33,699 nt of DNA from a virus: the IMG/VR virus record IMGVR_UViG_3300044960_000467, positions 1 to 33,699 of that record; one strand, written 5' to 3'. Of this stretch, positions 3,384 through 30,034 are shown in pieces. Both the position numbers and the translations under genes were made by a program. The notes below the pieces were generated by a model. That model did no database searches. It was not told the DNA's origin and worked only from the letters and a program-made list of their open reading frames with translations. Each line of letters begins with the position of its first letter. The first letter of the stretch is position 1.

Positions 3384-3968
3384 TCAAACGTTCGCCAATC
3401 GGCAGATCACGATCCCGCCCACCGCCCGTTTGGTGGTGTCGGCGTTCCAGAGTTGGAGCCGGATTTCTCTCCCGGCGGCGACCTCAGGGAATTGAGATGG
3501 CGTAGTGTTGTCCCCCTCCCACAGCAGCGACAATGCGTTGGGGGAAGCAAATCTATCCGGCGCAACCACGGTAACACCGTCGGTGACGTTTTGAAGGCGC
3601 GCTTGTCGGTTCGACGTATCGGTCATCATCGGACGAATCCCGAGCGCGTGTAGCACGATCAGTTTCTTTCCCGTGGGAACCGTGTAGACGGCATTGGTGG
3701 GCGATTTCCAGTTGGCCTGGTTGTGGCTGCTCAGAAAGACAAGCGCCAGGGTATCGCCGGAGGTGAGCAACGCGTCCACGGGGTCAGTGTTGCCCGTGGT
3801 CACGGCGTAGATGGCGTCCCAGATGCCCGTGGTGTTGCCGCGTACCAGCGATACTGGGGCCTTCTTACTCACCCCGCCTTGAACGACTAGTAGCAGGTCG
3901 CTATCGGCCACCGAGGTAGCTTGGGGGCGCTCACTGAGTTTCTGGTAACTGGTAGGGGGGTTTGCCAT
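3384..3968 (-). CDS. Hypothetical phage tail protein
   Basis: 194 residues from an ATG that overlaps the previous stop (TAATG), with AGGAGG upstream. The N-terminus (ANPPTSYQKLSERPQAT.VADSDLLLVVQGG) resembles short N-terminal segments of phage tail or fibre proteins; the remainder is predicted beta-rich with no recognised catalytic motif. It is the last gene before the endolysin cassette and is separated from it by the structured RNA element, consistent with a virion accessory or decoration protein. Function not established. Confidence 0.55.
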   Translation of the reverse strand: MANPPTSYQKLSERPQATSVADSDLLLVVQGGVSKKAPVSLVRGNTTGIWDAIYAVTTGNTDPVDALLTSGDTLALVFLSSHNQANWKSPTNAVYTVPTGKKLIVLHALGIRPMMTDTSNRQARLQNVTDGVTVVAPDRFASPNALSLLWEGDNTTPSQFPEVAAGREIRLQLWNADTTKRAVGGIVICRLANV

Positions 3969-6956: not shown

Positions 6957-9900
6957 CTAAGTGGTCAACCCAGCGCGGCGCATAGCGACTTCGAGCTGGC
7001 GATCGACGATCTGGCCGACCAGCCGCTCAATCGCCGTGCGGGTGGCGGGGTCAGAAAGGGCGCTGGCGATCGTGAAGTCAAACTGACTGGTCACGTTGAC
7101 GTTGAGCGTGCTGACCCCGCTGCGGCTGCTGACGCGCTCGGCGGCCCTCTCATCAGCAGGTTTGGGTCTGGAGAACAGCGCCCCCAGCCCAACGATGCCC
7201 GCCAGCAAGCCCAGCCCGATCAGGGGGTTAGCGGCCAGCAACGGGGCCATGGCGGAGGCTACTGACGCGGCAAGCTGTTGGGCAATCGGCCCCAGGATAG
7301 CGTTTAGCAGCAGGGACTCGAAGTAGCCAGCGACGTCTTCGAAAATCTTCTCAAAAGCTCCCTGAATGTTCCCTTCTTGAATGCCATCGACCAGGGTCTT
7401 TCCCGCGCTCAGCACGGCCTTCTCCAAGTTTTCCTGGATGTCTTTGGTTTTGATCTCGAGCTCTATCTCGCTTCGCACCTGCCGCAGCGCAGCAACCTGG
7501 GCTTGAATCTCAGCCAGCTTCCGGCTGACCTCATCAAGGCGCTCGGTAGAGATGTCCGGCTCCAACTTCTCCTGTTCGAGCCGGGTAATTTGGGCCTCGT
7601 ATTCGGCAATCTGGGCGTTGATCCGTTCGAGCTGCGCCTCGAGGGTTTCCCCTACCTCGAGGCTCACCCCGGCCAAAGCGTTGATCTTGATCAGCCCTTC
7701 GAGCTCTTTTCGCAGCTGAGCGATGCGGATTGCCAACCGTCGGGCTTCTTCAGCGCTGAGCCCTTCTTCAGCGGCCAGGAGCTCGAAGTAGCGAATGGTC
7801 TCCTCGAGGCCGAGAGCGTACTCCTGTTGTGAGGTCAGGCCAACCTCAAACTCCTGGCGCAGCAGGGCAAGCGCGTCGAGGGCGTCGCCTACCCGCTCGT
7901 TGAACCCTCGCAGGCCATCAGCGAATTCGCTCGAGGTCAGCGGTGTCTCGATCAGGGTTAGCTTCTGTAGCTCCTCCTCGAGGGCCGCGATCTGGTTGCG
8001 CAGGTTGAGGGCGGCGGCCGAGTTCTCCTCGAGGTTGTTTGTCTTGCTTTTCAGGAAGACAATGACCTGCTGTAACGAAGCCGCGAACGCCTCCTCGCTG
8101 ACGATCCCCCGCTCAACCCCCTCCCGCTGAGCGTTGAGGTTTTCGATCAGGGCCGCCGTCGCCGCATCGAGCTGCTGGCGGGCCGCCTCGGCCTCCTCAG
8201 GTCGGTCAAAGCCCTGGGCCAGGGCGCTTTGCAAGCGGTCGATCTCAGAGAGGATGTTGCCCAGCGAAAGGGCCCTCAGGGACTCGCGGTACTCGTCAAT
8301 ACCCCGCGCCGCGCCTCTGGCTCCTTCCTGAACCTGGTAGTAGCCCTCGGCCAAGGCGGTTTCCTCCTCGATCTTGGCCGCCAGGGCAGGGTCGCGGAAG
8401 GCCAGCTCAGCGTTGATTTGCTCAAACGCCGCGCTGCCCTCGAGGCCGATCTCCCGCAGCTGGTCACGCAGTTCGACAAGCTCCTGGTCGCTGAGGGCCT
8501 TCAGCTCGTCGAAGGAGAACACCCGATCTAGCTCGAGGCGGCGCTGGTTTTTGACGATATCCGCGAAGGAGGCGCTGAAGCCCCTTCCGGCGGCCTCGCC
8601 CAGCTTAGCTCCCATCTCAGCGAAGCCGGTGGTCTCGGGGTCCACCGTTTTGCTGAGGTTGGCAAAGGTCAGCTCCAGGAAGTTCTCGGGGAAGGCCCGC
8701 GCCGCCAGCTCGCGGGCGGTCTCCTCGTCGAAGCCCTGCGCCAGCAGGCCGTCAATGGCCGTGTTGAAGTCGGTAAAGCTCCTGCGTATGGCAGCGAGCG
8801 CGGCCTGGAAACCATCGCCGTAAACCGCCTTCAACCGCTCGGCGGCGGCCTCGTTGAGACTGATCGCCGCTTCTTCACCTAGCTGAGCGAGAGTAGTCTC
8901 GAGCTTGCGCCGCCCATCGGCGATGTCGGACAGAAGCTTGTCGATTTGTTTTCTGGCGTCGGCGTTGGTGGTCCGCTCCCTCAGGGCCTGGGCTTTTTGC
9001 TCGAGGCTCGCCAACGCCCCGGCGTACTGGTTGACGTTCTTGGTTTCCGCAAACAGCCGGTTCTGGCGCTCGAGCTCCGCGTTCAACGCCTCTAGCCGCG
9101 GCTGAACTCCGGTTTTCTCCAGCGCCTCCAACGCATCTTTGATAGTGCCCAACCCACCCAGAACTGCCTGCTTGCGCTCGGTGGTGGTGGCCTGTTTCTC
9201 CAGTGCCTGTAGCTGGCGCTGCAAGCGCTCGAGTTCGGCGCGGTACTGAGCCGCGTCCACCTGCCCCAGCTTGTAGCGCTGCTGGAGCACCCGAAGCTGC
9301 CCCTCGAGCTCCCGCGCCCGCTTGACGATGGCGTCCTCGGTTTTCCCCTCCCTGTTAATAGTGGGGATGTTCGCGGGAACAGGCTTGCTGTCGCTGACGC
9401 TGGTCGGGGCTTCCGTCGGCTTGCTCGGTGGCTTCGCCCGCAGCTTCTCGAGGTCGGCCTTCAGTCGGGTGATCTCGGCTTCGGTGGTTTTGACCGTTTC
9501 CTGTGCGGCACGCAGTTGTTCCGCTAGCAATGGGCTTACTACTCCCAGCCGCGCCGTCCTCTGTAGGTTCTCAAGTTGCTTTCGTTGCTCAGCAAGCTTC
9601 TTCTCTTCATCGCTGATGCGCGTGAGCAGGATGGAGGCGCGGGCAGGGTCGTTGAAGTCTTTCAGAGGGCCGATCAGGGCGCCGCTGCTAAAGCTCTTGG
9701 GGTCGTTGGAAAACGGGCTGGGGATTTTGCCTCCGGTGGCTCGAGCTACAGCGTCTGCAAGTCCCTGCCATGCTTTGTACAGATCAACGATCTTCTGTAG
9801 TGCGCTGACCAGTTTGGGTGCGATCTCGGTGTAGAACGTTACCAGCACCGGCTGCAAGCCCTCGCCCAGGGCCCGCTTGGCGTTTTGAATCTCGCGCTCG

Positions 9901-23594: not shown

Positions 23595-24302
23595 TTACGC
23601 GCTGACTGTTTGCCCAGTCTCCTCGGGTTTTGCGTGCAGTGGAAGAAGCTCGGCCAGAAGCTGGTAAAGCCTGACAAGGCGCTCGACGAGAACGCCGTTG
23701 CTCCAGTCGATGCCGTTGGACTCCAAAAGGTCAATCAGCGAGCGAGCGTAGTAGCCCGCCTGGTTGCCGTTGAGGTGTCGGTTGGCTAGCTCCTGCTCGG
23801 GCGTGAGCCGGGTGCCCGCCAGGTGGCGCAAGGCTGGTTTCAACACCACCTTCTCAGCGCCGCTGCCTAGCGCCACTCGCTGGGAGGCAAGCTCGGTCAG
23901 CCTTTCAACCCGAATCGCCAGCGCGTCGGCCACCGCCGCGGGTTCAAGCCCTACCCGCTCTGCCAGGATGAACGCCCTCACCTCGTCAGCTGTGGTGAAC
24001 CTCTTCCCGTGCCCCGCGTTGTAGCGCAGAGCGTCTAGGAGCAAGGCTTTCTCGTCCAGGTAGTCCTTCAGAACCACCGGCACCTCGGCATCCTCGCCGA
24101 GCGCCTTCATGTACGCCCTGCGCCGGTGGAAGCCGTCCACGATACGCAGGCTGCCTTTATCCGCCACGATGGGCGGCAGCTCCTGGCCCGCCAGGAGCGT
24201 TTCAGCAAGCCGCGCCGCATGCAAGTCGTCGACCTGAAGCCGGGGGTAAATCGCCGTGTCTTCTACCAGAAAAGCCGCTTTGATGGTCTGAATCTTTGCC
24301 AT
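23595..24302 (-). CDS. ParB-like N-terminal domain protein
   Basis: 235 residues from the ATG at 24302 (GGAGGTAGG upstream). The N-terminal third has the ParB/Srx-fold pattern: YPRLQVDDLHAARLAETLLAG followed by LPPIVADKGSLRIVDGFHRRRAYM, with GFHRRRA as the conserved nucleotide-binding motif. The central part (FTTADEVRAFILAERVGLEPAAVADALAIR) is a helix-turn-helix-like region as in ParB. No ParA partner is present, so plasmid-type partition is not supported. Phage relatives often sit beside methylases, as here. The leader is built of GGNNN repeats. Confidence 0.75.
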   Translation of the reverse strand: MAKIQTIKAAFLVEDTAIYPRLQVDDLHAARLAETLLAGQELPPIVADKGSLRIVDGFHRRRAYMKALGEDAEVPVVLKDYLDEKALLLDALRYNAGHGKRFTTADEVRAFILAERVGLEPAAVADALAIRVERLTELASQRVALGSGAEKVVLKPALRHLAGTRLTPEQELANRHLNGNQAGYYARSLIDLLESNGIDWSNGVLVERLVRLYQLLAELLPLHAKPEETGQTVSA

Positions 24303-24317
24303 ACCTACCTCCGTTTG

Positions 24318-24416
24318 TTTCCTCGTCCTCGCCTTGCCTCGCCTCACCCGACCCGACCCGACCTGACCCTGTCCTCGCCTTGCCCTGCCCCGCCTCGCCA
24401 GGCCCGGTCCCCGCCA
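24318..24416 (-). repeat. GGNNN-periodic G-rich leader, upstream of ParB-like gene
   Basis: Read on the minus strand this ~100-base stretch is a succession of 5-base units beginning with GG (for example GGCGA, GGCGG, GGCAG, GGCAA, GGCGA and GGTCG in tandem). Each GG is separated by three bases, the geometry of two-tetrad G-quadruplexes. It ends just before AAACAAACGGAGGTAGGT and the ATG. A second, longer tract of the same type precedes the next gene upstream. Confidence 0.7.
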
Positions 24417-24488: not shown

Positions 24489-25088
24489 CTACAGGTCCTC
24501 TACCCAGGCTTCTACGATTTCAAACCTACCGAACGGGCCGCCCTTCTCAGGCCGGTAGTCCAACACCCCGATCCGGGTTCCAGCCTCTTGAAGAACCTGC
24601 ACCAGGATGCCGGGGTTCTGGATGATCCCCGCGTCGTACTGGTAGCGGACTTCCGCCTCCCAGGGCGTCTCAATGAGGGGGCGAGCCCGCAAGATGCCCT
24701 GTTTCTGCACCACCGCCCGGCGCACGTCGATCCGGTCATAGGTGGTGAGGGTCTGGCCGTTGCGGGTGATGGGGAAATACTCCTCGAGCACGAACACCGC
24801 AGCCGCCAGGATGGGGCCGAGGGGCTTACGATTGACCCTCAAGCCCTTCGCCGCCCGCTTCATGGCCTCGCGCACGTGGTCAGCCCCAAGGTAGAGCCAA
24901 CCATCAGGGTGGCGGTAGAGGCCGCGCTCAGCCTCCTCCTCAGGGGTGGGAACCTTCTTGCGGCTAGCCTCGTTGCCGCCGCCCATGCTGTGCTGGGGGT
25001 TGTGCATCAGCAAAGGCGTTACTGCCTTCAGCCGTGCCACGAAAATTTTGAACTCGCTGCCAGTTGATTCGATCTTGATCTTTTCCAT
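24489..25088 (-). CDS. Unknown 199-residue protein with faint RAMP-like ends
   Basis: ATG with GGAGGAG upstream. The N-terminus (FKIFVARLKAVTPLLMHNPQ) has the strand-then-PLLMHN pattern seen in many phage proteins of unknown role. The C-terminus (RPEKGGPFGRFEIVEAWVED) has a Gly-rich loop resembling that of RAMP/Cas7-type folds. A conserved-looking middle reads DRIDVRRAVVQKQGILRARP. Sited among recombination genes, it may bind nucleic acid, but the fold suggestion is weak. It appears to have its own promoter and a ~300-base repeat-rich leader, unlike its neighbours. Confidence 0.6.
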   Translation of the reverse strand: MEKIKIESTGSEFKIFVARLKAVTPLLMHNPQHSMGGGNEASRKKVPTPEEEAERGLYRHPDGWLYLGADHVREAMKRAAKGLRVNRKPLGPILAAAVFVLEEYFPITRNGQTLTTYDRIDVRRAVVQKQGILRARPLIETPWEAEVRYQYDAGIIQNPGILVQVLQEAGTRIGVLDYRPEKGGPFGRFEIVEAWVEDL

Positions 25089-25095
25089 TGCTTCT

Positions 25096-25345
25096 CCTCC
25101 TAACTAACCTCGCCTTGCCTTACCCCGCCCTGCCACGCCCCGCCAGGCCTCACCAGGCCATGCCGTGTCCTCGCCTCGCCTTGCCTCACCCTGCCACGCC
25201 CCGCCAGGCCTCACCAGGCCATGCCGTGTCCTCGCCTCGCCTTGCCTCACCCTGCCACGCCCCTCCTTGCCGAGCCGCGCCTCGCCAGACCTAGCCGCGT
25301 CCTCACCTTGCCCTACCTTGGCCAGCCATAGCACGCCCAGCCATA
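25096..25345 (-). repeat. GGNNN-periodic leader with a 61-bp tandem repeat
   Basis: The 333-base gap 25089-25421 has no supported gene. Most of it is a G-rich minus-strand tract with 5-base periodicity (units such as AAGGC, GAGGC, TGGCC). Within it a 61-bp unit is repeated exactly at 25131-25191 and 25192-25252, with a partial third copy to 25262; TGCCACGCCCC begins each copy on the plus strand. The period is not a multiple of three, arguing against a coding repeat. The tract lies between a promoter-like site and the start of the 199-residue gene. Confidence 0.75.
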
Positions 25346-25425: not shown

Positions 25426-25955
25426 GCACTGTTGGCTAAACTGCTTTCCCCCTCCAGCCGCATGCACACCCGCGCGATCTCCTCCGTGGGTGCCGTGGCC
25501 GCCCACTCCTCTGCCCGGCGCAAGCGCTCCTCCGAGAAGCCGTGCGCTCTGCTCACCTGAACAAGTCGCCTGGTCCACTCCTCCCTCAGCCGCCGGGCCC
25601 TGGCCTCGGGGTCCACCATTGCTGCGCGGGATTCCGCCGATGAGATGATCTCCTCCCGCTGTTCTGGGTGCTTCTCCAGATGCTCTTCCCACGCCATGAG
25701 GTTCATGGGGCTCCAGCCCAGAATCCAAGCCACGCTCCTAAGCCGGGTCCGCCAGTGGTCTCCCACCGGCTGCGGTTCGGCTGGGGGGGTCTTCTCCAGG
25801 TAGGCCAAGACCTCGGCCTTCTTGGCCTTGATGGCCGCCCTGAGTTCGTGGTGCTCGAGGGTGTTCTGGAAGCCCGTGGCCAGGAGTCGCCCGCCCTTGG
25901 CCTCCAGGATCACCCCGAGCCGCGCCGCCAGCCGAACAAGTTCTTCTGCCGTCAT
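25422..25955 (-). CDS. Protein with TubC_N-like N-terminal domain, function unknown
   Basis: 177 residues, ATG overlapping the helicase stop. Residues 1-55 (TAEELVRLAARLGVILEAKGGRLLATG followed by ELRAAIKAKKAEVLAYLEKT) match the small alpha/beta pattern of the TubC_N docking domain, which is also common at the N-terminus of phage and mobile-element DNA-processing proteins. The rest is helical and charged, with EEHLEKHPEQREEIIS and RLREEWTRRLVQVSRAHGFSEERLRRAEEW. Docking to the helicase or primase encoded next to it is plausible but unproven. Confidence 0.55.
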   Translation of the reverse strand: MTAEELVRLAARLGVILEAKGGRLLATGFQNTLEHHELRAAIKAKKAEVLAYLEKTPPAEPQPVGDHWRTRLRSVAWILGWSPMNLMAWEEHLEKHPEQREEIISSAESRAAMVDPEARARRLREEWTRRLVQVSRAHGFSEERLRRAEEWAATAPTEEIARVCMRLEGESSLANSA

Positions 25956-27550
25956 GCGTCCACCCCCGGCATCGGGTACTCGTACGCCTTGCCCGGGTCG
26001 AGGACGATCAGCTCCTCCCGGGCCCGGGTCACGCCCACGTAGATGAGGCGGTGGAGGTCGTCTGGGGGGGTCATGTGCCAGGCCCTCGAGGTGAACCCTG
26101 GGGCCAAAAACACCGTGTCAGCCTCACCGCCTTTCACCGAGTGAATGGTGCCGATCCACACCGCCTTCCGCCGAGCTTCGGCCAGGTTGGGGATGCGTCG
26201 GGCCACCTGGAGGGCGTTGCGCATCCCCTGGGGGGCCGTGGAGAGAAGGTGCTCCTCGAGGAAGGCCACGTCACGGGCCAAAAGGCGATCCGCCGCTCCA
26301 TCCAGGACGTACCGCCTCAAGTCCTCCGGCCTCACCACCACGTCCTGCGGGAAAGAGGCCAGCTCCTCTCTCGCCCCCCGGTAGCGGAAGAGCCGCACCG
26401 GCAGGAGGTGAGCCCACAGCGCCACGTCCTTCCCGCGCCAGGGGGTTTGCAGGTAGGCGGCCACCCGCTTCCAGCCGGGGATGTTGGCCCCCCCGTCTTC
26501 GTAGAGTAGGTTGAACTCTCTCCTGTGCGGGGCGAATGGGTTGGCATAGGCCGCCCCGGCCTCAAGGAGAGCCTTCCGCACCGGGTCCAGCATGTAGCGG
26601 TGGGGGGCCAGGATCAGGGCTTTCTTCCCGGCCTCCGTTACCGCCATGGCCTCCTCGAGCCACAGCCAGGTCTCCTCTAGGCTCGCGTGCAACCGGTACG
26701 CGCGGCCCTCTTCCTGGCGGGGCCTGTACGCTTTCGGGTGCCGCTGGCTGATCTGGCTTGCTACCCGCTCGGCTACTCTATGCACCGCGCGGGGGATGCG
26801 GTAGGATTGAGAGAGAACGAGGTCTTCTCCCGGGAAATCCAGGAAGGCTTTCCCGTTTGCCCCCATCCACCCATAGATGGCCTGATCGTCGTCGCCGATG
26901 AGTGCCACGTTCTGGGCGAACTCGGCCCAATAGGTGACGAGCTGGTACTGGAGGGGGCTCAGGTCCTGCGCCTCGTCCACCAGGAAGAGGCGGAAGCTCC
27001 CATTCTCCCCCGGCACCACTCGAGCATGTAGCGCCCGCTCGAGCATGGCCGGGAAGTCTACCAGGCCCTGTTCCTCCATCCAGGTGCTCCAAACGATCCA
27101 GAACTCCCGGTGTTCATCCGGCCACTCCTGGATGGGCACCAGCCGATTTCTCAGGAGAACCACCTCGTCGTAGAGCTGGTCTCCGTCCTCCGTGAGGTCC
27201 GCCGCGTCCTCCATCGGGTTCAGGGTGTGGCCGGCACCCTTCACCCTGGGGGTGATGCGCCAACCAAGGCGAGCCTCTTTGTTCCACTCCTTAACCGCCT
27301 CACCGCTGACCGCCAGCGGCGGCGACCCGATAGCCCGATAGGCCAGGCTGTGGACCGTCCCCAGGTTCTCGCGGGGCACGGATTCATCGCCCAGCCTCGA
27401 GGCGAACTCGGCGAACGCCGCCCGGCTGAAAGAGCAGACGAGAATCTCCTCTCCCGCGATGCCGCTACCGATGGCCTTCTCCACCTGGCGCTGGAGCCAA
27501 GTCGTTTTGCCGGTGCCGGGAGGTCCGAAGACTCTATAGCGGAAGCCCAT
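25952..27550 (-). CDS. Superfamily 1 DNA helicase, UvrD/Rep-like
   Basis: 532 residues from the ATG at 27550 (TAATG overlap, GGGAGGAGC upstream). SF1 motifs are in order: GPPGTGKTTW (9-18), VCSFSRAAFAEFASRL (Ia), TVHSLAYRAIG, LVDEAQDLSPLQ (191-202, Walker B DEAQD), ALIGDDDQAIYGWMG (216-230, motif III), TIHSVKGGEADTVFL (~468-482) and YVGVTRARE (~504-512). At 532 residues it lacks the large 1B/2B insertions of full-length UvrD. It should unwind DNA during phage replication or recombination, using ATP. Confidence 0.92.
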   Translation of the reverse strand: MGFRYRVFGPPGTGKTTWLQRQVEKAIGSGIAGEEILVCSFSRAAFAEFASRLGDESVPRENLGTVHSLAYRAIGSPPLAVSGEAVKEWNKEARLGWRITPRVKGAGHTLNPMEDAADLTEDGDQLYDEVVLLRNRLVPIQEWPDEHREFWIVWSTWMEEQGLVDFPAMLERALHARVVPGENGSFRLFLVDEAQDLSPLQYQLVTYWAEFAQNVALIGDDDQAIYGWMGANGKAFLDFPGEDLVLSQSYRIPRAVHRVAERVASQISQRHPKAYRPRQEEGRAYRLHASLEETWLWLEEAMAVTEAGKKALILAPHRYMLDPVRKALLEAGAAYANPFAPHRREFNLLYEDGGANIPGWKRVAAYLQTPWRGKDVALWAHLLPVRLFRYRGAREELASFPQDVVVRPEDLRRYVLDGAADRLLARDVAFLEEHLLSTAPQGMRNALQVARRIPNLAEARRKAVWIGTIHSVKGGEADTVFLAPGFTSRAWHMTPPDDLHRLIYVGVTRAREELIVLDPGKAYEYPMPGVDA

Positions 27551-28482
27551 TACAGCTCCTCCCACCACTGCTCACCTCCCTCATTTTTGGACTTGGTCAA
27601 AGGGGGTGTGTCAAAAAGCCCATCGTTATCGTGATGGTGCGGATGGTGCGGATGTGGTGCGGATTGAGAATCGCTAAAAAGCCCATCGTTATCGTGATGG
27701 TGCGGATGGTGCGGATTTTTCGCATGTCCATTAGGTCTTGCGTGCGCATTATCCGCACCATCCGCACCACCTGCGTTCTGAACGGTGTTTTCTTCATTTT
27801 CCGATGCGCACCTATCCGCACCATCCGCACCACCTGCGTTCTGGACGGTGTTATCCTCACGCAGGAACTCTGGAAGCATGGAATCTGGAAGCTCCCAGTA
27901 CCTCTGCCACCGCCGTTCGTCCCCGGTTCCGCGGTAAATCCTTACCGCCTGAGCCCCGTACCTGCGAAGGAGAAGCGCTACCTGCTTGGTAGTCACCTGG
28001 GCCACCCGGCGCTCCACCACCCACCGGGTCAGGTTGGTGGCGTTGATGAGGACAACTCCATCCCGCTGAATGGGGAGCTCCATCTGAACCGCGCGGGGAT
28101 AGTTCGCTTGATCTTCTTCAGGGATGGGCCGCCGGTCGCCCAGGTAGGCTGCGAGCCAAGAGAGAAGGAGATCGTACTCCTCGGCCTCGGGAGTCTCTAT
28201 GTCCTCCCGGGCTGTCAGGAAAGCGGCGAGCATCTTCCGCCACTTCCCGTCCCGCTGATCTAGGTACTCGGGGATGTAACGGGTCGCGTGAGCCACCGCC
28301 GCACGCACCCGCTGCTGGCTGAACGCCCGCTCAGGGGTTCCCAGCTCCACCCGCGTGCCGTTCACCACCATCCAGTAGGTGGGAGGCGATGAGAGGTAGC
28401 AGATCACCCGCTCTGCCCTGGGAATCCACTGCCGGATGTAAGCAAGGGCTTTCTCGGGGGTGGCGAACTCCGTGCCTACCAT
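27550..28482 (-). CDS. Putative replication initiator/primase-associated protein with iteron-encoded tail
   Basis: 310 residues. Residues ~1-215 form the ordered part; ~147-205 (NATNLTRWVVERRVAQVTTKQVALLLRRYG ... GDERRWQRYWELP) read as a winged-helix like those at the C-terminus of phage and plasmid primase-helicases. From ~217 the sequence changes to two 21-residue repeats (NTVQNAGGADGAD plus spacer), then two more (PHHPHHHDNDGLF plus spacer), so the tail is low-complexity and His/Asp-rich. These repeats are the translation of a DNA iteron array, which suggests an initiator gene containing its own origin, as in lambda O. Lies between the helicase and a primase-like gene. Confidence 0.55.
   Translation of the reverse strand: MVGTEFATPEKALAYIRQWIPRAERVICYLSSPPTYWMVVNGTRVELGTPERAFSQQRVRAAVAHATRYIPEYLDQRDGKWRKMLAAFLTAREDIETPEAEEYDLLLSWLAAYLGDRRPIPEEDQANYPRAVQMELPIQRDGVVLINATNLTRWVVERRVAQVTTKQVALLLRRYGAQAVRIYRGTGDERRWQRYWELPDSMLPEFLREDNTVQNAGGADGADRCASENEENTVQNAGGADGADNAHARPNGHAKNPHHPHHHDNDGLFSDSQSAPHPHHPHHHDNDGLFDTPPLTKSKNEGGEQWWEEL
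27613..27852. repeat. Iteron array, candidate replication origin
   Basis: Nine copies of GGTGCGGAT: plus orientation at 27636, 27645, 27656, 27699 and 27708; minus orientation (ATCCGCACC) at 27751, 27760, 27814 and 27823. They are embedded in two larger direct-repeat pairs, a 41-bp exact pair at 27613 and 27676 and a ~40-bp near-exact pair at 27750 and 27813. Both pairs have a 63-bp period (six helical turns). A/T-rich stretches (AAAAAG, TTTTTCG, TTTTCTTCATTTT) lie between. The arrangement is that of an initiator-binding origin. Confidence 0.65.
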
Positions 28483-29033
28483 GCGGGCCCCCTCTTCCGC
28501 CTAGGCTTCTCAGGTTGTACCGGTGGCTCGAGGGGCCTCTGCTGTCCCGCCTTCAGCCCGCTGTTGATGACCGATCTAGCCTCCTGGTGGCTCAGCCCCA
28601 GGCGCTCGGCGAGGGCCTCGAGCGCACCCCGCACCTGATCCTCGGCAAGAAACTCCAGGAGTCCCCCGGCGGTGAACGCCGCCCGGTAAAGGGCGTTGTT
28701 GCGGTAGCCGGGGGCCCCTTCCACCTCGGCTCGTGCAATGGCCGATTCCAGCACCCGCCGAGCCCAGTAGCCGGGCCAGTCCTGGGAGTCGTAGGCGGCC
28801 TGGCCCATCGGCCGCCCGTTCTCCAAGAACTCAGGCCCGTAGTGGCCGATGAGCCGGGCCTCGCTCGCCGAGATGAGGTAGCCGCCCCGGCGGGGATGCC
28901 ACGCGCAGAGCACCACCCCGTGGGCCAGGAGCTCCAGGGGCGGAGCAGACAGCTGGAAGCCGTGAGCCTCCAGGGCCTCCCGGGCGGCTCTGAGCGTGGC
29001 ACCGTTGATGTAGAACTCCCGGGAAAGGCCCAT
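28476..29033 (-). CDS. Primase-associated helical protein
   Basis: 185 residues; the ATG overlaps the RecT-like gene stop (TGATG). The first ~80 residues are an alpha/beta segment (AAREALEAHGFQLSAPPLELLAHGVVLCAWHP). Residues ~105-165 (RNNALYRAAFTAGGLLEFLAEDQVRGALEALAER followed by GLSHQEARSVINSGLKAG) match the helical linker of phage and mobile-element primase-polymerases, where N.AL.RAAF..G and the GLS..EA...I.SGL.AG word recur. The catalytic primase motifs are absent, so this could be a stand-alone accessory or a split part of a larger primase. Confidence 0.55.
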   Translation of the reverse strand: MGLSREFYINGATLRAAREALEAHGFQLSAPPLELLAHGVVLCAWHPRRGGYLISASEARLIGHYGPEFLENGRPMGQAAYDSQDWPGYWARRVLESAIARAEVEGAPGYRNNALYRAAFTAGGLLEFLAEDQVRGALEALAERLGLSHQEARSVINSGLKAGQQRPLEPPVQPEKPRRKRGPAW

Positions 29034-30034
29034 CAGAGCTCCTCTGCCTCAAGGTTCGTAGGCTCCGGTAAGTCAGCCCGCTCTGTTAGCCAAGCCCGAA
29101 GCCGCTCCCCGGCGTTGATGCCAGCATCGCTCCCGGCCTCCAGGAGGGCCTCGAGGTAGGCAATGAGCTGCTCGGCCTCGTAGTGGTGAAGGCCCCGAAC
29201 GGACTCGAGGGAGCGCTTCGCAAACCGACTGGCCACCTCTCGGGCTTCCTCGCGGGAAAGCCCCAAGCTTTCGATAAGTGCTTTGAGGGCTTCTACCTGC
29301 TCCCCGGTGATGGAGCGCCCCTTCAAGTCCTCCATGACCTGGGTGGCTTCCTGCTCAGAAAGCTCACTCAGGGAGGCCACCTCCCGCCCTAGAAGCTTCC
29401 CGGCTTCCTGGATGGGGTCCACCCCGAGTCTCCCCGCCAAGGTGGTTATGGCCCGAAGCGAGGCATCGGAGACCGGCTCCCCTTGCTCCTGAGGCAGGCG
29501 AGCCGGGGTGGCTTCGGCAACCACGGTAACCTCGGGGGCGGTGAAGTCGGCCACCTCCTCGGGGGTGTACACTCCCACCGCCACGCCGGGGTAGACCGTG
29601 CGCACACCCTCAGAAACCACGCGAGCGCGGAGCATGGCCCTGGGGTATTTCTCCCAGTTGCCCCCGTTTTTGCCTAGAAGCCCGGCTCGCTTAGCGTCCT
29701 CGAGCGTCCAGGCGATTCGGACCGAGCCCCCCTGCGGGTGGGAGAAGGTGGCCTCCGCCCGCTCGTTTGAGAGGGCGTGCCACTCGACCTTGCCACCCGC
29801 CCGGAGAAAGCGGGCCAGCATCGCATCCGCCCGAAGCGCAGGCCGCCCATTGATGATGTGATACTCCTGGACGGCCCGCATGGGGTGAACCCCCTCGGCC
29901 TGCGAAAGAAGCATGAGGCTCACCGCCTCTTCGACCCGCTTTACGCCGAAGAGCCCGCTGCGGGCCACGTACTGCGCGGCCCGCTCGAGCTCCCCAATCC
30001 CCCATGACGATGTTTTGGCAAGTTCTTCTGCCAT
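29033..30034 (-). CDS. recT: RecT-like single-strand annealing protein
   Basis: 333 residues. The core (SLMLLSQAEGVHPMRAVQEYHIINGRP then ALRADAMLARFLRAGGKVEW, and WTLEDAKRAGL followed by NWEKYPRAMLRARVVSEGVRTVYPG and VGVYTPEEVADF) is characteristic of RecT-family proteins, which anneal complementary single strands in phage recombination. The C-terminal third is a helical extension with two similar segments (SEQEATQVMEDLKGRSITGEQ and LSREEAREVASRFAKRSLES). No RecE or Exo partner is recognised nearby. RusA downstream could resolve its products. Confidence 0.85.
   Translation of the reverse strand: MAEELAKTSSWGIGELERAAQYVARSGLFGVKRVEEAVSLMLLSQAEGVHPMRAVQEYHIINGRPALRADAMLARFLRAGGKVEWHALSNERAEATFSHPQGGSVRIAWTLEDAKRAGLLGKNGGNWEKYPRAMLRARVVSEGVRTVYPGVAVGVYTPEEVADFTAPEVTVVAEATPARLPQEQGEPVSDASLRAITTLAGRLGVDPIQEAGKLLGREVASLSELSEQEATQVMEDLKGRSITGEQVEALKALIESLGLSREEAREVASRFAKRSLESVRGLHHYEAEQLIAYLEALLEAGSDAGINAGERLRAWLTERADLPEPTNLEAEEL

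Follow-up and report, generated by a model that had tools for sequence, protein, structure and literature searches.

A mirror-symmetric repeat array at a primase-related winged-helix gene of Thermus and Meiothermus phages as a probable replication origin

The stretch of viral DNA analysed here (33,699 nucleotides, hereafter the window) carries, in the 3' part of a reading frame for a 310-residue protein, an array of short DNA words, and a bidirectional array was found at all 11 homologous Thermus and Meiothermus phage or prophage loci, always between a winged-helix domain and a UvrD-type helicase gene. Across unrelated words, the sites of these arrays mirror one dyad almost to the base pair. 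From comparison of the loci and from a structure model we consider it probable that the array is bound by the winged-helix protein of its own gene and, as such, is most likely a replication origin; it is taken as the initiator's site and likely origin because described systems built on this logic are origins. The original prediction had proposed an origin-like array within a replication gene, and its equivalent place in the 11 loci supports such a layout.

The window contains nine exact copies of GGTGCGGAT, five on the plus and four on the minus strand, within a span of 196 bp (Table 1). They are arranged as four tandem pairs and one single site. Shuffled sequences gave 0.41 copies on average and none of 100 reached nine. 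The nine copies in both orientations of the original prediction are confirmed. A tenth copy, ATGCGCACC, with one mismatch to GGTGCGGAT, completes the mirror image, and a second bidirectional cluster of 8- or 9-mers comparable to this array was not present in the 33,699-base record. Both 63-bp spacings described in the original prediction exist, one between blocks at 27613 and 27676 (41 nt, identical) and the other between blocks at 27750 and 27813 (47 nt, 94% alike). The interpretation attached to them, namely six helical turns with all sites on one face, had to be dropped, because relatives use a spacing of 75 bp (7.1 turns) and the period within pairs is 9, 8 or 6 bp depending on the relative. 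The claim that one word yields GAD or HPHH peptides according to its orientation is correct for four copies translated as GAD and four as HPH; the copy at 27656 is read in the third frame, as SAP.

Table 1. Features of the array, its gene and the neighbouring genes (positions in the window)
Feature	Position	Strand	Basis or remark
Mirror-symmetric array, nine exact GGTGCGGAT and one copy with one mismatch	27636..27831		dyad between 27733 and 27734
Exact copies of GGTGCGGAT	27636, 27645, 27656, 27699, 27708	+	
Exact copies of GGTGCGGAT	27751, 27760, 27814, 27823	-	
Outer pair, one arm, two tandem 9-mers	27636..27653	+	
Single site	27656..27664	+	73.5 bp from dyad
Inner pair, one arm	27699..27716	+	
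Central spacer with short T run	27717..27750		local GC about 48-60% versus 63% in the record, a modest dip
Inner pair, other arm	27751..27768	-	
Single site, one mismatch (ATGCGCACC)	27804..27812	-	74.5 bp from dyad
Outer pair, other arm	27814..27831	-	
310-aa ORF, primase-C-terminal-like winged-helix protein, proposed origin-binding initiator	27550..28482	-	array in 3' part
Folded part conserved among homologues (about 211 aa), including the winged helix at about residues 128-198	27850..28482	-	alignment, AlphaFold2, fold match
Wing hairpin, residues 178-198	27889..27951	-	structure model; loop 185-190 at 27913-27930
SF1 helicase (UvrD/phrog_1967), overlapping the end of the initiator ORF	25952..27568	-	profile matches
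Small upstream protein, possibly PriCT-like	28476..29033	-	motif GxRNNAL
RecT-like ssDNA-annealing protein	29033..30034	-	phrog_561, 6e-26
ParB-like product	23595-24347		phrog_1033

The geometry of the sites is shared to a large extent. Measured from the dyad, site centres are found at +/-21.5, 30.5, 73.5-74.5, 84.5 and 93.5 bp in the window, at +/-20, 28, 73, 95 and 103 bp in Thermus phage Riverbug and at +/-19.5, 25.5, 71.5 and 100.5 bp in Meiothermus phage MMP7, the latter including two TGGCAC sites, which are one base off the word GTGACAGTGACA and are unchanged in all five MMP7-like sequences. A contig from a Meiothermus MAG (L051) agrees with Riverbug except for one single site at 74 bp, and a Thermus prophage locus (L080) agrees apart from a missing outer site. 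Overall, the inner pairs lie at 20-30 bp, the single site at 72-75 bp and the outer sites at 85-103 bp. Inner pairs converge on the dyad in every array measured; the single site near 73 bp has an orientation opposite to its neighbouring sites in Riverbug, L080, L051 and MMP7 and the same orientation in the window. A scan for mirrored complementarity, performed without reference to any word, ranked the array dyad first in all three phage genomes (window, Riverbug, MMP7), with a score of 38 in the window (14 for the best centre outside the array), of 39 in Riverbug (37 for the next, which is a second array discussed below) and of 19 in MMP7, a marginal lead over the next centre with 18.

Homologues of the protein were found in Riverbug, MMP7, Meiothermus phage MMP17, L051, four viral contigs (L052-L055) and two loci in Thermaceae assemblies (L079, L080), and its first 211 residues are conserved across them (43% identity in Riverbug, tblastn). 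The arrays of the 11 loci are built from three unrelated words, GGTGCGGAT, TAGTCANNTAGTCA and GTGACAGTGACA: the last is the word of the MMP7 group, whereas Riverbug, L052 and L079 use TAGTCAGGTAGTCA and L080 and L051 use TAGTCACATAGTCA. The TAGTCA arrays among these are not all independent. Conservation of the 9-bp word itself, as originally proposed, is hence not seen, the homologues carrying other words; the encoded peptide is lost as well, with tails unrelated to GAD/HPHH. The words are read in three to four classes of orientation and frame, and in Riverbug, L080 and L051 the word core is read in two frames per orientation. The array of the Meiothermus phages is situated past the stop of the winged-helix gene; in MMP7 it starts at this stop and runs over a separate 74-aa ORF, i.e. 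outside the gene. Measured against the refuting outcome named in the original prediction, the comparison is mixed: the array layout persists while word and peptide both change. A DNA pattern is thus favoured over the peptide, and the idea that DNA rather than protein is maintained stands; sequence comparison supports the layout of the array, rather than word or peptide, as what is kept. Within the MMP7-like phages, none of 48 columns in the words is variable, compared with 15 of 169 elsewhere (Fisher p 0.046).

In three whole Thermaceae assemblies, TAGTCANNTAGTCNGA is confined to the array, which argues against a host regulator. Pairs of GGTGCGGATGGTGCGGAT occur in 43 other viral stretches, in none of which both orientations are clustered, and ten other viral contigs contain pairs of the Riverbug and L051 words, in no case as an array. 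Plasmids contained no homologue, and among 111 genomes of the group no further relatives were found; one marginal match (G073/L081, E 4e-4) looked unrelated and was discarded.

An exchange of sequence between close relatives is clear in L080. This locus is 95-100% identical to the Riverbug group over most of 3.6 kb and 58-78% identical in one stretch of ~350 bp, which extends from just after the recognition helix to the last word and beyond which identity returns to 93-100%; in comparison with Riverbug itself, the gene body shows 96.6% and wing plus array 70.6% identity. Neither the core TAGTCA nor the recognition helix differs between L080 and the Riverbug group. The flanks of the word changed from GG to TC and from GG to CA and, together with them, the wing changed from QRKGSGANRT to QRWRNSGANRS. 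L051 and L080 share only 69% identity over the gene body, yet L051 carries the word of L080, and a Trp in the wing is common to L051 (QVWKEGRNRT) and L080 and lacking in Riverbug. With one clear exchange and one concordant case, these sequences are suggestive of a wing that contacts bases. Identity also falls elsewhere in the 3.6 kb for certain pairs (e.g. at 298-358 versus L079), so that the locus is mosaic in general; the dip of L080 is seen against all three relatives and coincides with wing plus array.

A winged-helix-like domain had been predicted for the protein, and the AlphaFold2 model (mean pLDDT 82, pTM 0.55) bears this out, residues 128-198 following the order H-beta-H-H-beta-beta of a canonical winged helix. 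The significant fold matches of the model are phage primases and a relative, the BFVD entries of two phage primases reaching 6e-10 and 3e-7; the PDB, searched by sequence and by fold, returned nothing significant. Eight of nine family members match the primase family phrog_21866 (best 5.6e-7), and the relatives align to its C-terminal part (positions 366-513 of the 538 in the profile); profile searches with the protein of the window itself returned no match. Because of the phrog_21866 matches of its relatives and the primase fold matches in BFVD, we call the protein primase-C-terminal-like, and judging from sequence and model it is a protein without a catalytic domain of its own: Pfam detected no primase domain in the 310-aa ORF, which corresponds to the C-terminal region only. 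In Riverbug, homology extends about 80 codons upstream of the annotated start of Riverbug_47 (locus position 3720), to about 3474 (L048:3474-3719), and the deposited start is probably too far downstream.

Regarding the neighbours, the expected helicase is of the UvrD type, and it likewise lies downstream in Riverbug, MMP7 and MMP17. The expected primase-like neighbour received partial support: a PriCT_1 match in Pfam was obtained for the Riverbug homologue of the small upstream protein alone, albeit below the cut-off (E 0.0087). MMP7 has a separate Prim-Pol gene at the equivalent position, upstream of the winged-helix gene. No helicase loader was recognised among the neighbouring genes examined. 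The array is absent at distant UvrD-helicase loci (L056-L074) and in eight phages with a related UvrD-type helicase (L087-L094); these eight belong to very different hosts, and in several an annotated primase lies at or near the helicase gene, so the order of primase and UvrD-type helicase is widespread although the array is not.

P4 alpha and the Pri-Rep proteins of PICIs are multidomain primase-helicases. The present protein resembles them as a primase-type replication protein, but its C-terminal part stands alone, the helicase has a UvrD-type SF1 gene of its own and the array lies in coding sequence. In PICI origins an AT-rich region has an iteron set on either side, and the alleles vary from element to element (PMC6092414); here, two mirrored sets are clear, but their centre is only modestly AT-rich. 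In primase replicons of the pRN1 type, the origin lies just 3' of the replication gene and its structure, not its sequence, is conserved (PMC4234260). Our loci resemble pRN1 and phage BPP-1 in the position of the putative origin directly 3' of a primase-type gene, in a protein ending in a winged helix and in structure kept without sequence, but those systems possess one long stem-loop instead of a symmetric array of repeated words. The RepA_N domain of PLE covaries with its origin, both being exchanged as a module (PMC8263062), and a DNA-binding domain and a presumed origin seem to change together as an exchanged module here too; the protein family is another one, the PLE origin is intergenic, and the exchange in our case comprises the wing and about 300 bp of array.

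In lambda and SPP1 the origin lies inside the initiator gene (PMC6022878; PMC6316719), and the likeness to lambda O/ori-lambda and SPP1 gp38/oriL consists in origin-like repeats within the gene of the presumed origin binder, in the early replication region. The lambda O arrangement invoked in the original prediction thus applies insofar as the array is inside the ORF of the proposed initiator; a literal relationship to lambda O is not supported, and the iterons differ. No lambda O family match was found for the 310-aa protein in Pfam or PHROGs, and the protein is primase-related, with a UvrD-type helicase as its neighbour. Four 18-bp inverted-repeat (palindromic) iterons lie in the middle of the lambda gene, next to a separate high-AT region, whereas one large dyad of 6-9-bp words lies here 3' of the DNA-binding domain, the words of the window being 9 bp long and non-palindromic and the AT dip at the array being modest. 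The array gene would accordingly represent a variant of the initiator-embedded origin, and it falls outside the lambda O family.

As to binding by the winged-helix protein, origin function, partners and bidirectionality, we infer the following course. Copies of the protein would bind the two mirror-image halves, the recognition helix reading the core of the word and the wing its flanking bases; the symmetric complex would then open or bend the central spacer, and the adjacent UvrD-type helicase together with a primase activity might be recruited, so that two forks could start. Several observations count against this reading: the cumulative GC skew does not turn at the array and gives no origin signal, the AT dip is modest, Riverbug has a second array (see below), and the other phages with a related UvrD-type helicase lack an array. 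A more specific reading, towards which we lean slightly less than away from it, is that the C-terminal winged helix of a primase, separated from the polymerase, has turned into a stand-alone origin recogniser, working with an SF1 UvrD-type helicase on a mirror array, almost exact to the base pair, whose geometry is fixed and whose word is exchanged together with the wing. If this is true, an exchange of about 350 bp is enough to rewrite the recognition code.

Other explanations have to be weighed against a replication origin bound by the winged-helix protein. Selection on the peptide, with functional (for example metal-binding) GAD/HPHH tails and the DNA repeat as a by-product of recent 63-bp duplications, is hardly credible: His-rich tails can bind metal and the identity of the 41-nt blocks does indicate that some duplication is recent, but the unrelated tails of the homologues already contradict it, MMP7 is devoid of such a tail, the dyads are near base-pair exact, and the SAP copy in the window as well as the several frames used for one word in homologues do not fit a selected peptide. 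An operator, by which the winged-helix protein would control transcription of the downstream helicase genes while replication starts elsewhere, is unlikely, although it deserves more attention: winged helices are frequently regulators, mirrored sites permit looping and the helicase start follows immediately downstream of the array. An operator would, however, rarely be expected to have as many as ten sites across 200 bp within a reading frame, the protein resembles the C-termini of primases and stands in a replication gene order, and the closest precedent for mirrored sets is an origin (PMC6092414).

The ParB-like product of the window raises the thought that the array serves another phage protein as a partition (parS-like) or packaging site. 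This seems very improbable, as Riverbug and MMP7 have the array but no annotated ParB gene, and in L080 the exchange took in both the array and the wing of the winged-helix protein next to it. Somewhat less remote, but still improbable, is an origin that acts as a hairpin of single-stranded DNA, of the kind proposed for pRN1 and BPP-1, in place of duplex iteron binding. Primase-related replicons with 3' stem-loops exist (PMC4234260), and the single-stranded arrays of the window (z -10.4), Riverbug (z -9.7) and L051 (z -8.6) fold much more strongly than shuffled sequences. Inverted words form hairpins anyway, though, the sites are paired in tandem as duplex binding would predict, and the MMP7 array folds weakly (z -2.0) yet keeps its site geometry, so that site geometry, not the hairpin, is the common property.

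Work on how initiator and origin remain matched during change has usually relied on lambdoid phages and a small number of model plasmids. The natural variants described here separate the layout, which is kept, from the word, which is replaced, the wing, which is replaced with the word, and the peptide, which is free, and they offer a compact system in which the residues that read particular bases can be identified. In the literature searched, no origin array was described for temperate phages of Thermus and Meiothermus, for which the present array suggests origins.

Riverbug contains the second array mentioned above, which consists of seven roughly 19-bp palindromes around TGGTGAAC (L095, PQ109080.1, 23048-23197) and is absent from its close relatives L052, L079 and L080. 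Its type is TGGTGAAC-N-GTTCACCA, it lies inside Riverbug_39 and adjoins an apparent truncated RusA sequence, and in form it is similar to lambda O iterons. It could be the origin of Riverbug instead, and Riverbug may possess two replicons or the remnant of one. Repeats of other kinds were also observed in the window: GC-rich tandem repeats in one orientation (61-bp unit x2.6, GGCAAGGCGAGG blocks) at 25108-25263 and about 24340-24415 flank the gene 24489-25088 (phrog_4652). Finally, the motif CCTCGAG is clustered within 350 bp both in the window (nine copies at 7637-7983, inside the tape-measure gene) and in MMP7 (six copies at 23802-24080); the cluster in the window is probably driven by codon usage.
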